IMG/VR virus record: IMGVR_UViG_3300030331_005340
Coordinates: 1 to 24,402 of that record
From: a virus
Reading direction: 5' to 3' (one strand)
DNA: 24,402 nucleotides
Shown here: one piece after another, positions 20,816-24,402 of the stretch
Layout: each line of letters begins with the position of its first letter
Position numbering within the stretch: the first letter of the stretch is position 1
The notes under the pieces: generated by a model
What the model saw: the letters and a program-made list of their open reading frames with translations, nothing else
The model's database searches: none
Told to the model about the DNA's origin: nothing
Program-made: the position numbers and the translations under genes

Positions 20816-21106
20816 ATGGAAAGTCCAATATCAAAATTTGTAAACTGGCAACTATCGACTGGTCAACTTGACCATTGGACATCTTATCATATAGCAGCTG
20901 GTTTAGCTATTGCGAAAATAGCACAATGGTTGGGTTCATCCGATTTGTGGGCAGTTCTTTGGGTGCTAATCATCGGAATTGCTTGGGAAATATTTGAATA
21001 TATCATAGAGGATTGGAGAGTCTATGGTAGTAAAAAGAAATGGGCTTGGAACACAGCAGCTGACATCATAGTAGAAGTCGGTGCGGCTTGGTGGATGGTC
21101 TTATAG
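20816..21106 (+). CDS. Small three-helix membrane protein (VanZ/YjdF/YfiM-like pattern)
   Basis: 96 residues behind a perfect AGGAGA site. Three hydrophobic segments are predicted, roughly residues 24-40, 44-64 and 80-96. Polar residues inside or beside the membrane are arranged as in the VanZ/YjdF/YfiM-like families: D19-H20 and H25 before the first helix, WEIFEYIIE (57-65) at the end of the second and NTAADIIVE (79-87) in the third. The same layout recurs in the protein at 23550. In a phage, a short three-helix protein could be a holin or a superinfection-exclusion factor. No lysozyme-like gene is visible in the window, so a lysis role is unproven. It opens the accessory cassette. Confidence 0.7.
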   Translation: MESPISKFVNWQLSTGQLDHWTSYHIAAGLAIAKIAQWLGSSDLWAVLWVLIIGIAWEIFEYIIEDWRVYGSKKKWAWNTAADIIVEVGAAWWMVL

Positions 21107-21115
21107 GAGAAACAG

Positions 21116-22459
21116 ATGTTAAAGAAAATAATATTAGGTTTATTACTAGTCTCATCTTTGTTTAGTCAAACTGATTGGAAAGATAAGTTTTGGTCAGGAC
21201 CTAAAAGTATAATGTCGTTTAGGTTTGCTGACAAGTTCTTAAAATATTCTACTGCTTATTCTAGTTTTAGTTTAAATGCTCCACGATATCAAGATGATAG
21301 ATTTGCCATTGTTGGTGGTTTATCCACTGGTGCTTTAGAAGTTACTAGAGATGAAAGAGATTTAAAACCTGATTTTCAAACATCATTCGGACTTCGTAAA
21401 ATTGGTAGATTTCAGTATGAACCGAAGAGAGGTGTGAAATCTGCTGGTAGAGGTGGTACTTGGTATGATGGTAATGAAAAAAATGCTAATGAAAGTGCGA
21501 TATTCGGACCTGTAAAGGGTTGGGAATATCTAATGAAATGGACAGAAGGTAGACAATGGGGTAATGAATATTTAAACCAAGAATATTGGATACGATACAT
21601 CGGTGATTGGGCAATGGCTAAAGTTGGTTGGACAGAATTAGGTTTGGAAGATATTAGTTATGGACAAGGTGATATCAGAGTTCATCTTACACCAGAAGCT
21701 CTTGGAAACAAACTACACTTTTCTGTTGGATTTAAACACAGACAACATCCTGTTTATGGATTTGATGCGATGGTATTGGACACAACTTGGTATAAAGGAC
21801 AATGGTGGCAGTTTGCAGAAAAAGCATTTGGTATAGATGATAATATGTGGTATGATCCTACAATGCTAGACGAAGATGGAAATTGGATACATCAAGACCT
21901 TTATGAAATTGATCCTGTAACGGGTGAACTAAAACTTATAGAAGGTGACGGACCATTTTGGAATGAAGGTGGTCAATATTGGGGACACGATTGGTTATGG
22001 AGAGATGAGCAAGGTAATATATTTGCTTATACAGATAGAGAGTATTTCTTATACCACTTTCCAGGCATGTTAGAAGAATATATTGATGGTGTTAAAAAAG
22101 ATTTAGGATATCAAAGTGAAACATCTTTAGTGTTGGGTATTGACTTTTATCACTACGATGAAAACTGGTGGATACATGGTTGGGGTAATTGGCTACCTAT
22201 TCATTATGGACATTCAGATTATGCTTATCACAATGCTGCTCATTATCAAACTCACTTAGAAGAGGGTGGTGAAGCTAGTGAGTTTGTATTTATGAAACCA
22301 ATGTGGCATGATTGGAATGATTATGATATGGGTGGTATATTTGGTATAAAAGTAAAAGATAACCTTGGTGTATTTGCAGAGGGTAGATATCTGTATTATT
22401 GGGAAAGACCTGCTTATGATTTAAAATTAGGTGTTAATTATCAATTTATGGGATTTTAA
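21116..22459 (+). CDS. Exported Trp/Tyr-rich protein, probable outer-membrane beta-barrel
   Basis: 447 residues behind AGGAGAAA. A clear signal peptide (MLKKIILGLLLVSSLFSQ) is followed by a mature protein very rich in Trp, Tyr, His and Gly. Many alternating aromatic strands are visible (KLHFSVGFKHRQHPVYGF, ETSLVLGIDFYHYDENWW). The last strand, YDLKLGVNYQFMGF, ends in a terminal Phe as outer-membrane barrels usually do. His/Asp-rich stretches (HYGHSDYAYHNAAHYQTH) may bind a metal or ligand. I do not recognise the family. An exported barrel-like protein is unusual in a phage late operon; it could modify the host surface, block the receptor or have been acquired from a host. It is directly followed by the Cys-rich micropeptide. 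Confidence 0.72.
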   Translation: MLKKIILGLLLVSSLFSQTDWKDKFWSGPKSIMSFRFADKFLKYSTAYSSFSLNAPRYQDDRFAIVGGLSTGALEVTRDERDLKPDFQTSFGLRKIGRFQYEPKRGVKSAGRGGTWYDGNEKNANESAIFGPVKGWEYLMKWTEGRQWGNEYLNQEYWIRYIGDWAMAKVGWTELGLEDISYGQGDIRVHLTPEALGNKLHFSVGFKHRQHPVYGFDAMVLDTTWYKGQWWQFAEKAFGIDDNMWYDPTMLDEDGNWIHQDLYEIDPVTGELKLIEGDGPFWNEGGQYWGHDWLWRDEQGNIFAYTDREYFLYHFPGMLEEYIDGVKKDLGYQSETSLVLGIDFYHYDENWWIHGWGNWLPIHYGHSDYAYHNAAHYQTHLEEGGEASEFVFMKPMWHDWNDYDMGGIFGIKVKDNLGVFAEGRYLYYWERPAYDLKLGVNYQFMGF

Positions 22460-22460
22460 T

Positions 22461-22514
22461 ATGTGTGAATGTAATGGAACATGTAGTTGTGATTGTTGCG
22501 ACTGCTGTAAATAA
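22461..22514 (+). CDS. Cysteine-rich 17-residue micropeptide, metallothionein-like
   Basis: The peptide is MCECNGTCSCDCCDCCK: eight Cys of 17 residues, at positions 2, 4, 8, 10, 12, 13, 15 and 16, giving C-x-C, C-x-C-x-CC and CC patterns like metallothionein metal-binding clusters. The ORF fills the gap exactly: its ATG comes one base after the preceding TAA (22457-22459), and its own TAA (22512-22514) touches the ATG at 22515. A weak GGGA (22450-22453) lies seven bases upstream. Six Cys codons are TGT and two are TGC, fitting the AT-rich genome. There is no signal peptide, so it would stay in the cytoplasm. It may bind Zn, Cu or Cd, or it could be a leader peptide whose Cys codons sense cysteine supply and couple translation to the next gene. 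The exact fit favours a real gene, but no homologue was checked. Confidence 0.62.
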   Translation: MCECNGTCSCDCCDCCK

Positions 22515-23156
22515 ATGAACGGTGACATCAAAATTGGTAAGTTGTTATGTGATGAGGACATCATTACTAAGAGACAACTAAATAAAGCCTTACAAGTTCA
22601 AGTAAAAGGAGATAAACGCACTCTCGGAGAAATACTTGTAGATTTAGGTTTTTGTGATTTTGATGATATAACAGATGCTTTATTAAATGCTGATTGTGAT
22701 ACAAAAAAACACGAGAAGAAAAAAGAAGAAATTCATCAAGAAGTAAAGCCTGTGGTTGAACAAAAAGAAAAACAAAAATCTAAAAAGAAAGAACCAATAG
22801 AAATATCAGAAGACAAGGTTATGAACACTAAGTTTACCATGTCTATTCAAACTATAGTTGCTTTAGTAGGTGTCATATCTGCTGGAGTTGGTGGTTACTA
22901 CATGTTATTATCTGAGATAGAGGAGGCAAAATTATTACCAGAACCACCATCAATAGAGACAATTTTTACGGATGAATACCCATCCAAACCTGATGGTCAT
23001 AATTGGCCACGATCATATGAACAATACAAGAATCAAGTTGGAGGTCTACAAGAAGATATGGATGCCGTGTATGACGTATTAGATGAGTATGAAGAACTCA
23101 TCAAAGAATTACAGAAGGATATCAAAGACCTTGAACGAAGAAAGAGGGATAAATAG
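22515..23156 (+). CDS. MshEN-like domain, TM segment and coiled coil: envelope protein
   Basis: 213 residues. Residues about 5-60 resemble the MshEN / GspE-N domain of type II secretion and type IV pilus ATPases: IGKLLCDEDIITKRQLNKAL, ending L-Q-V-Q, then a second half TLGEILVDLGFCDFDDITDA. The first half fits the 24-residue c-di-GMP-binding motif (LG-x-x-L, I-x-x-x-x-L-x-x-x-L-x-x-Q) apart from the leading Arg; the second lacks the final Gln. Residues 62-100 are a Lys/Glu-rich linker. Residues 109-132 are one membrane helix, and 165-213 are a charged coiled coil. No ATPase domain follows. No Shine-Dalgarno site is seen and the ATG abuts the stop of the micropeptide, so translation is probably coupled. 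It could be an adaptor tying a cytoplasmic signal to the envelope, or a spanin-like protein. Confidence 0.68.
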   Translation: MNGDIKIGKLLCDEDIITKRQLNKALQVQVKGDKRTLGEILVDLGFCDFDDITDALLNADCDTKKHEKKKEEIHQEVKPVVEQKEKQKSKKKEPIEISEDKVMNTKFTMSIQTIVALVGVISAGVGGYYMLLSEIEEAKLLPEPPSIETIFTDEYPSKPDGHNWPRSYEQYKNQVGGLQEDMDAVYDVLDEYEELIKELQKDIKDLERRKRDK

Positions 23157-23165
23157 GAGTTTGTT

Positions 23166-23540
23166 ATGAAAAACATATTAACATTATTACTATTCCTGTC
23201 TGTTACATTTTCACAAGTAAATGACAAGAACTTTAAATCAGAAATCAATGGTGGAATAGTAGTTGCTATCTTTTCATCTGAGTGGCAAGAACAAGATGTA
23301 GATGAAAAAATACTAAAGGGTGTTAGTGGATATCAAGATTGTAAGATAATTAGAGTCAAGAGTGAGGATGCTCCAAAGGTTGTAAAGAAACTTAGATTCA
23401 GAAACTTTCCGTCCATGGCTTTATTCTATGATGGTAGTAAAAAAGAAACTTGGAAAGCTGATATGGATGGTGAAATAGATGTTAGTAATAAAGAGATAAA
23501 ATCATCTATAGATGATGTTTTGGCAGAAGACGTATTTTAG
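23166..23540 (+). CDS. Exported thioredoxin-fold protein lacking the CXXC motif
   Basis: 124 residues behind AGGAGT. The signal peptide is MKNILTLLLFLSVTFSQ. The mature part follows the thioredoxin pattern: GGIVVAIFSSEWQEQDVDEK (first strand and active-site helix), a central KIIRVKSEDAPKVVKKLRF, and the cis-Pro strand NFPSMALFYDG. Where active thioredoxins have W-C-x-x-C, this protein has W40-Q-E-Q-D, and the only cysteine in the mature chain is C59. So the fold is probable but disulphide exchange is not. It could act as a periplasmic chaperone or binding protein. It lies between the MshEN-like membrane protein and a small membrane protein, all with strong ribosome binding sites. I rate the fold more securely than any role. 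Confidence 0.66.
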   Translation: MKNILTLLLFLSVTFSQVNDKNFKSEINGGIVVAIFSSEWQEQDVDEKILKGVSGYQDCKIIRVKSEDAPKVVKKLRFRNFPSMALFYDGSKKETWKADMDGEIDVSNKEIKSSIDDVLAEDVF

Positions 23541-23549
23541 GAGAGTGTG

Positions 23550-23813
23550 ATGAGTAAATTCAATGACTTTATGTTACAATGGGGAACTGATAAGTTTCTT
23601 CATTTTATGGCTGGAGCTGCTGGGTTTGCCATAACAGAGTCTTGGATAGTGTTGGGTATACTCGCGTTTGGTAAAGAGATTTATGATAAGTATTTTGGTA
23701 GTGGGTGGAGTAATAAAGATGCCTTTGCTACCGTACTAGGTGGTATATTTGCATTTATTGGTGATATTTGTTGGGAGTTCATTATAGAAAAATTACCATT
23801 TGTAATTTATTGA
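23550..23813 (+). CDS. Small membrane protein, YfiM/DUF2279-like pattern
   Basis: 87 residues from the ATG at 23550, which is better spaced from AGGAGA (23539-23544) than the GTG at 23547. Three hydrophobic segments are predicted. The pattern WGTDKFLHFMAGAAGFAI, then AFGKEIYDKYFGSGWSNKDA and ATVLGG, is that of the YfiM/DUF2279-type small membrane proteins (D-K-x-x-H-F-x-A-G; G-K-E-x-x-D; D-A-x-x-T-x-x-G-G). It shares its architecture with the 96-residue protein at 20816 but not clear sequence identity. It is the last gene before the terminator. A holin-like or exclusion role is possible. Confidence 0.72.
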   Translation: MSKFNDFMLQWGTDKFLHFMAGAAGFAITESWIVLGILAFGKEIYDKYFGSGWSNKDAFATVLGGIFAFIGDICWEFIIEKLPFVIY

Positions 23814-23841
23814 TACACAATGTAACAGGTGTAACATTTTG

Positions 23842-23876
23842 AAACCTCACTTTTTAGTGGGGTTTTTTTATTTTAT
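23842..23876 (+). terminator. Intrinsic (rho-independent) terminator
   Basis: AAACCTCAC (23842-23850) pairs with GTGGGGTTT (23857-23865): nine base pairs including one G-U, with loop TTTTTA. A T-rich run continues through TTTTTTTATTTT. It ends the cassette that finishes at 23813 and separates it from the pilin-like gene. Confidence 0.9.
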
Positions 23877-23983
23877 ACTCTAAGTTCAACAATATTAACA
23901 TAATTAAAAAAAATAGTCAAAAACAAACACTTTGGTACAGTTATTGTACTATATAGGTAACAACAACATATAGGAGAACTGAA
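23877..23983 (+). promoter_or_regulatory. Leader of the pilin-like gene: inverted repeat, possible promoter, strong RBS
   Basis: Non-coding and very AT-rich. GTACA and TGTAC form an inverted repeat around GTTAT (23936-23950) and extend on both sides with one mismatch. TACTATATA (23947-23955) follows and could be a -10 element; the same TACTATAT occurs at 705-712. I see no good -35 at the right spacing, so promoter type is unclear. AGGAGA (23973-23978) is a strong ribosome binding site for the ATG at 23984. Because the terminator lies just upstream, some promoter is expected here, and the inverted repeat could be an operator. Confidence 0.5.
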
Positions 23984-24402
23984 ATGTTCAAATCAATAAA
24001 AAAATACTTTAAAGGTCGTAGTGGTCAGTCACTCGCTGAATTTGCAGTAACAACTGCTATGATGGCAACACTTGCTACTACTGCAGCACCTAAATTTTCG
24101 GGTGTTGGAGAGGGTGCCAAGGAAAAGAAAACCCTTGCCGACATCGATAAGATAATGAAGTCAGCTAACAATTTTTATAATGCTAAAGTAACATCAGAAG
24201 GTCGTGGTAGATTTCCTGGTCAGGTAAAGTACAACGAAAGTGTACCTGATAATAATGGTGGATATGCTAACGAAGATTTACTTATTGCAAGTATCGATGT
24301 ATTTGAAACTTTTGAAAGTCAAGAAGCATCCAAGTGGGCTTCTGTGTTTGGAACAGCAAATTTAGAATCACCAGCACCACAAGGTTCTTCTGTGAATGTA
24401 TC
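23984..24402 (+). CDS. Type IV prepilin / GspG-like pseudopilin (3' end missing)
   Basis: 139 codons are visible before the window ends. The leader MFKSIKKYFKGRSG is short and basic. Cleavage after G14 would give a mature chain starting QSLAEFAV, with Glu at +5 and Pro at +22 (P36), both classic for type IV pilins and pseudopilins. The hydrophobic helix (FAVTTAMMATLATTAAPKF) is rich in Ala and Thr and less greasy than usual. The following AKEKKTLADIDKIMKSANNF and GRGRFPGQ resemble the helix and the Gly-x-Phe/Tyr-Pro block of GspG-like major pseudopilins. Residue +1 is Gln, not Phe. It has its own leader after a terminator, as a phage moron gene would. It could be a decoy or modifier of host pili or secretion, a virion protein, or a host-derived gene. 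Confidence 0.72.
   Translation, partial: MFKSIKKYFKGRSGQSLAEFAVTTAMMATLATTAAPKFSGVGEGAKEKKTLADIDKIMKSANNFYNAKVTSEGRGRFPGQVKYNESVPDNNGGYANEDLLIASIDVFETFESQEASKWASVFGTANLESPAPQGSSVNV

Follow-up and report, generated by a model that had tools for sequence, protein, structure and literature searches.

A virus record of 24.4 kb with contractile-tail baseplate genes (gp25-like, baseplate wedge), here called the window and analysed over its full 24,402 nucleotides, contains an open reading frame (ORF) of 17 codons plus stop, almost half of which encode cysteine, raising the questions of whether an ORF this short is a gene and what its product would do. The ORF lies at 22461..22514 on the plus strand, with its ATG at 22461 and its TAA at 22512-22514, and translation of the window gives MCECNGTCSCDCCDCCK, with 8 Cys among 17 residues. 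The stop of the upstream 447-aa gene (21116..22459, +) is the TAA at 22457-22459, separated by a single T from the micropeptide ATG (TAA-T-ATG junction, 22457..22463, +), and the micropeptide stop directly abuts the ATG at 22515 of a 213-aa gene (22515..23156, +). The arrangement reported in the first-pass annotation, with eight Cys, an ATG one base after a stop and a stop touching the next ATG, is thus exact in the sequence.

The 447-aa gene is the constant neighbour of the micropeptide in the phage group of the window. Its product has a signal-peptide-like start and is strand-rich and of outer-membrane type, with 77 relatives in IMG/VR, zero matches in Pfam and PHROG searches and an AlphaFold model that was unusable (mean pLDDT 38). 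The 213-aa protein, with 52 relatives in IMG/VR, is composed of a conserved N-terminal domain, a Lys-rich linker, one membrane segment and a C-terminal coiled coil; it had been named 'MshEN-like', a name that found no backing in Pfam (zero significant matches). A 96-aa membrane protein gene (20816..21106, +) precedes the 447-aa gene, and the gap behind it (21107-21115) is empty in the window and holds a micropeptide in L035, L049 and L464. Positions 20816-24400 of the window, and those of L128 after 9090, form an envelope-type gene cassette downstream of the tail genes, comprising a small membrane protein, the 447-aa outer-membrane-type protein, a membrane coiled-coil protein, a secreted protein and a pilin-like protein. 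The secreted protein is thioredoxin-fold-like with EWQEQ at the CxxC position, that is, without the active-site Cys, and the pilin-like protein is of type IV, L128 having in addition another pilin-like gene, the FTLIE motif of which is canonical.

Coding status of the ORF

A chance origin of the ORF was ruled out by dinucleotide shuffles and selection tests. Dinucleotide shuffling of the window, repeated 400 times (9.76 Mb), produced zero ORFs with at least 6 Cys at a Cys content of at least 38%, and the related loci (≤1.27 Mb, redundant) hold 19 distinct such ORFs, 19/19 on the coding strand and 17/19 with a Shine-Dalgarno-like motif. A codon comparison, proposed at first reading, bore out selection on the cysteines: in groups of alignable copies, some members of which were found by their cysteine patterns and so bias the test, Cys codons had 12 synonymous changes and 1 non-synonymous change, against 13 and 31 in the remaining codons (Fisher p=7e-5), Cys codons changing almost only synonymously and other codons freely.

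Most of the bias of searching by cysteine pattern is avoided in two further sets, namely peptides found through the flanking genes, which still needed a minimum Cys content, and those from a scan with MxxCxCCxCC, a pattern that demands five Cys and ends at residue 10. Relative to shuffled residues, the peptides found through flanking genes are enriched in CxC (z=+10), depleted in CCC (z=-5) and free of long gaps. Beyond the scanned pattern, Cys occupies residues 12 and 14 of 15/15 distinct peptides and residue 15 of 12/15, with residues 11 and 13 variable. It is the spacing of the cysteines that is conserved, not Cys content alone. Both purifying selection and conservation of the frame across relatives, by which a protein-coding gene is recognised, are found, and the 17-aa, almost half-Cys peptide of the window is very probably the product of a real gene, an assignment drawing on direct translation, equivalents in the same slot of relatives and selection on the Cys codons of the class.

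The window copy has no Shine-Dalgarno site. At the junction site the relative L054 carries TAGGAGAAATATAATG, which the window has lost via in-frame deletions, alignment of the two copies giving a net loss of 24 bases, the Shine-Dalgarno site included. The window copy would therefore need stop-start coupling for translation, and such coupling, deduced from the TAA-T-ATG layout, probably replaces the site. A Shine-Dalgarno motif is missing from one further copy, that of L035, which overlaps its upstream gene in a layout comparable to that of the window.

Position in relatives and extent of the class

Relatives were fetched from IMG/VR through the downstream gene (52 loci) and through the 447-aa gene (77 loci). 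The same slot in close relatives is filled by different Cys-rich ORFs, including MCDCCGCDCNCNCGK, MCDCCGCDCVNCNCGN, MCECCGNNCDCVNCNCGN and MCECKNCKCNESCGCGNCNC, most of them preceded by an evident Shine-Dalgarno sequence (TAGGAGA, for example). In L043, L050 and L052 the ORF is absent and both flanking genes are present, joined directly by TAA-A-ATG, and the earlier contention that the spacing makes sense only if the ORF is translated is therefore no proof of translation. Across about 60 loci the micropeptide, in those that have one, occupies a single side of the 447-aa gene, either 9-22 nt ahead of it or 1-16 nt behind it, the sole positional exception being L084, where it is one gene further on (617 nt). 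Where it follows the 447-aa gene, several unrelated genes come next. In a quick tree of the 447-aa protein with many weak branches, the micropeptide is present in 20/24 members of the clade of the window, with at least 7 gains or losses and at least 5 side switches overall. L042/L119 have no micropeptide at the 447-aa gene and carry MCKCCECCDCGCDCK elsewhere in the genome, and in L399 the micropeptide is the last gene of its cluster. By pattern, at most one copy per genome was found in the records checked, and the control pattern read backwards gave zero matches in the same records. Retention of a gene despite its changes of place points to a product that acts in trans, and the absence from three close relatives, the variable place and the one cluster-ending copy likewise argue for a trans-acting peptide and not a cis-acting leader. 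In phage G002 (L423, position 2883, minus strand) the micropeptide is away from the 447-aa gene in a different genome region, with no recognised Fe-S genes in the stretch of its surroundings that was read.

The earlier suggestion of a pattern search in viral contigs was fruitful, Cys-rich peptides recurring in IMG/VR. DNA-pattern scans of that collection, together with relatives of the flanking genes, yielded a class of 93 distinct peptides in 106 distinct contexts from many phage groups, with a median of 16 aa and 45% Cys. Recurring frameworks are MxxCxCCxCCxCxCC, MCxCxxCxCxPCxC, MCKCCKCCTCTCPECN, MCECKQCECESCNCSCCEC and MCCC(V/L)xCKCSCC. Some of the 93, for example MCVCGWCPCCCF and MCSCGHCLCPPCAHTA, may be unrelated to the rest, and the peptides are too short for shared ancestry of the different frameworks to be decided from sequence. 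A set of 37 peptides draws 91% of its non-Cys residues from D, N, E, K, G, S, T, P, Q and R, lacks F and W altogether and contains little Y or H. Each peptide has 6-9 thiols, the longest form having 17. A broad CDCCDCC scan was uninformative, with matches mostly inside long frames.

The peptide of the window very probably belongs to a large, mostly marine and apparently undescribed class of tiny Cys-rich phage genes. It is plausible, on the few annotated records examined, that genes this short escape annotation. Annotated phages in INPHARED gave zero relatives of either flanking gene or of the 43-aa peptide, and the micropeptide pattern was unmatched in HTVC008M, AG-345-L05, S-SSM7 and S-ShM2. 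A cellular origin was rejected, a search of the GTDB collection with the downstream gene finding zero relatives and the most specific pattern giving 13 matches in cellular genomes, several ferredoxin-like and none with the phage frameworks. A search of the open literature found no report of phage metallothioneins or Cys-rich phage micropeptides, which may nevertheless be listed in the 2022 small-gene catalogue of phages by Fremin, said to hold many genes this short. Many genes of this length also exist in the GMSC microbiome small-gene catalogue, the text of which mentions neither cysteine nor metallothionein (PMC11364881).

Neighbouring Fe-S assembly genes and the proposed function of the peptide

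A gene for Fe-S assembly lies beside the micropeptide in several phages. IscU adjoins it in L135, L162, L164, L181, L138 and L399 and is one gene away in L478, L489 and L492; an A-type carrier adjoins it in L448 and L535 and is one gene away in L138; and an NfuA-type protein adjoins it in L431 and L435. Representatives of these neighbours were confirmed by Pfam, and gene orders differ between phages. Outside the 447-aa-gene group, 11/69 distinct peptides have an Fe-S assembly gene within 3 kb, L399 not being counted because its discovery went by way of IscU, and 9/13 such Fe-S genes are the immediate neighbour of the micropeptide (hypergeometric p=5e-5). Set against the published figure of 16/1,352 marine viral genomes with Fe-S assembly genes (PMC5332604), 11/69 gives a binomial p of 6e-10. 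Both p-values ignore relatedness between contigs, such that the weight of the link rests on the differing gene orders. The linkage is enriched across the class and absent in the group of the window, in which no IscU was found in the long records checked, these being incomplete; for the window copy, the link holds by class only. The micropeptide is in the same kind of marine phages as the phage genes for IscU and A-type carriers and adjoins several of them; those genes are of ordinary size and already known as auxiliary metabolic genes (PMC5332604), and the micropeptide does not count among them and is more widespread than its pairing with Fe-S genes.

On balance, the window ORF probably encodes a metal-thiolate micropeptide that acts in trans in the cytosol, a minimal peptide resembling metallothioneins in mechanism, as suggested by its Cys-dominated and hydrophilic composition, the lack of a signal peptide and the mostly strong Shine-Dalgarno sites of the class. 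Fungal and bacterial metallothioneins are about 25-56 aa. Like the copper metallothionein of Neurospora crassa, MymT and the Synechococcus protein, the micropeptides are very small and Cys-dominated, with Cys as CxC, CC or CxxC, few aromatic residues and no signal sequence, and by composition they are likely to work like a metallothionein. They differ in being shorter (typically 13-20 aa), richer in Cys (median 45%) and phage-encoded, with putative metal binding and no detectable sequence homology. Homology to metallothioneins was not shown by sequence tests, Pfam, PHROG and PDB sequence searches giving no match for members above the 20-aa limit, which the 17-aa window peptide does not reach; the best Pfam match at E≤10 was a sub-threshold hit to PF12749 (E=0.49) for one 23-aa member. 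CxC is a named Cu(I)-binding motif of bacterial metallothioneins, being present in the mycobacterial metallothionein MymT, which binds Cu(I) (PMC6337107), and Fe-S assembly is reportedly inhibited when IscA binds copper, as the title of a work cited there has it. The peptide would be made in quantity in the reducing cytosol during infection, its thiols gathering soft metal ions into clusters of Cu(I), Zn(II) or Fe(II), such that free metal, above all Cu(I), would be kept from Fe-S assembly and the other metal enzymes that the phage needs or, alternatively, metal would be held for them, while the homeostasis of the host itself fails. The metal-buffering half of the function first suggested for this ORF fits the CxC/CC spacing, the hydrophilic non-Cys residues, the purifying selection on Cys and the recurrent adjacency of Fe-S genes. 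Against it stand the lack of a family match to metallothionein, the close relatives without the ORF, a window group without IscU in the records checked and the lost Shine-Dalgarno site.

The main rival, rated as rather unlikely, is that the peptide is a dedicated Fe-S or sulfur partner, either a thiol-rich carrier for iron, persulfide sulfur or a nascent cluster delivered by IscU, an A-type carrier or NfuA of the phage, or an adaptor between these proteins. Direct adjacency to these proteins in several gene orders and the 9/13 immediate neighbours would favour it, as would the presence of IscU and an A-type carrier in genomes of the MCKCCKCCTCTCPECN group, but most micropeptides, including that of the window, have no Fe-S gene nearby, and among the best 80 viral IscU loci most lack a micropeptide next to IscU. 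That a gene functional in relatives is decaying in the window, or persists there as an untranslated remnant, is improbable; the Shine-Dalgarno site of L054 has been deleted, yet the deletions keep the frame, the ORF retains its full length and 8 Cys, an ATG one base past an upstream stop is a usual layout for reinitiation and L035 provides a comparable case.

The other half of the earlier suggestion, a translational regulator of the 'MshEN-like' gene, gained no support, the micropeptide preceding or following the 447-aa gene, lying elsewhere (L423) or ending a cluster (L399), and RNA structure and a terminator having been sought at the ORF and none found. A cis-acting leader, the translation of which would sense the supply of cysteine or charged tRNA-Cys and control the next gene, is in keeping with the intergenic position and very high Cys content and has a precedent in the polycysteine attenuators of mycobacteria (Canestrari 2020, as cited in PMC9094748), which are likewise very short Cys-rich ORFs in operons. 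However, an attenuator has a fixed place upstream of one operon and an alternative RNA structure or terminator, whereas the gene behind the micropeptide differs between phages, the gaps of 0-22 nt are too short to accommodate a terminator switch and neither a stable RNA structure nor a terminator-like site was found near the ORF. The mycobacterial leaders are leaderless with runs of Cys; in the phage micropeptides such runs are avoided, CxC spacing is favoured and conserved beyond content, and a Shine-Dalgarno site is mostly present. On these grounds a leader is disfavoured and improbable. Also very improbable is the precursor of a modified (RiPP-like) or disulfide-bonded exported peptide, small Cys-rich peptides of this kind being common in nature, since the phage peptides are very short without a signal sequence and no modification enzyme was noticed among their neighbours, read without RiPP-specific models.

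Extending the metal-thiolate reading beyond the window, it is tentatively proposed that phages, mostly marine, might carry widespread unannotated thiolate-cluster peptides of ~12-43 residues guarding or supplying Fe-S assembly and other metal enzymes, which would be among the smallest metallothionein-like gene products. If true, the control that phages exert over the metal homeostasis of marine bacteria during infection would have been overlooked because the genes are too short for the cut-offs customary in gene finding. Peptides of this length, MCECNGTCSCDCCDCCK, MSKCKCCKCCNCTCC and MCKCKDCKCNPCRCK among them, lend themselves to synthesis, making metal specificity and effects on Fe-S assembly directly accessible, and the recurrent link to IscU, A-type carrier and NfuA provides a concrete hypothesis for the Fe-S genes of marine phages.

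Further Cys-rich peptides

In another phage group (L451 2211-3530; L541 5771-7151) the Cys micropeptide MCECTNCDCQVCECTCCSC and its kin lie between two genes, one an unrelated beta-barrel-like gene with a signal peptide and the other resembling the C-terminal half of the 213-aa gene of the window, such that the layout is that of the window with a different outer-membrane-type protein. The family MCCC(V/L)xCKCSCCxxHIxx (L455, L463, L491, L517, L522 and relatives) belongs to a separate phage group, follows an Hsp20-type gene and has a conserved non-Cys tail. In two Clostridium contigs (L225 near 7366; L227 near 418), MCRCCCCCEICII and MCRCCCCCCNICII have a good Shine-Dalgarno site and resemble leader peptides with runs of Cys, not the frameworks of the phage peptides. 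A 59-aa phage ORF near 8810 of L242 (minus strand) contains the Cys cluster CCNCGCDCGCDGNCDCCDCC with other sequence at both ends.
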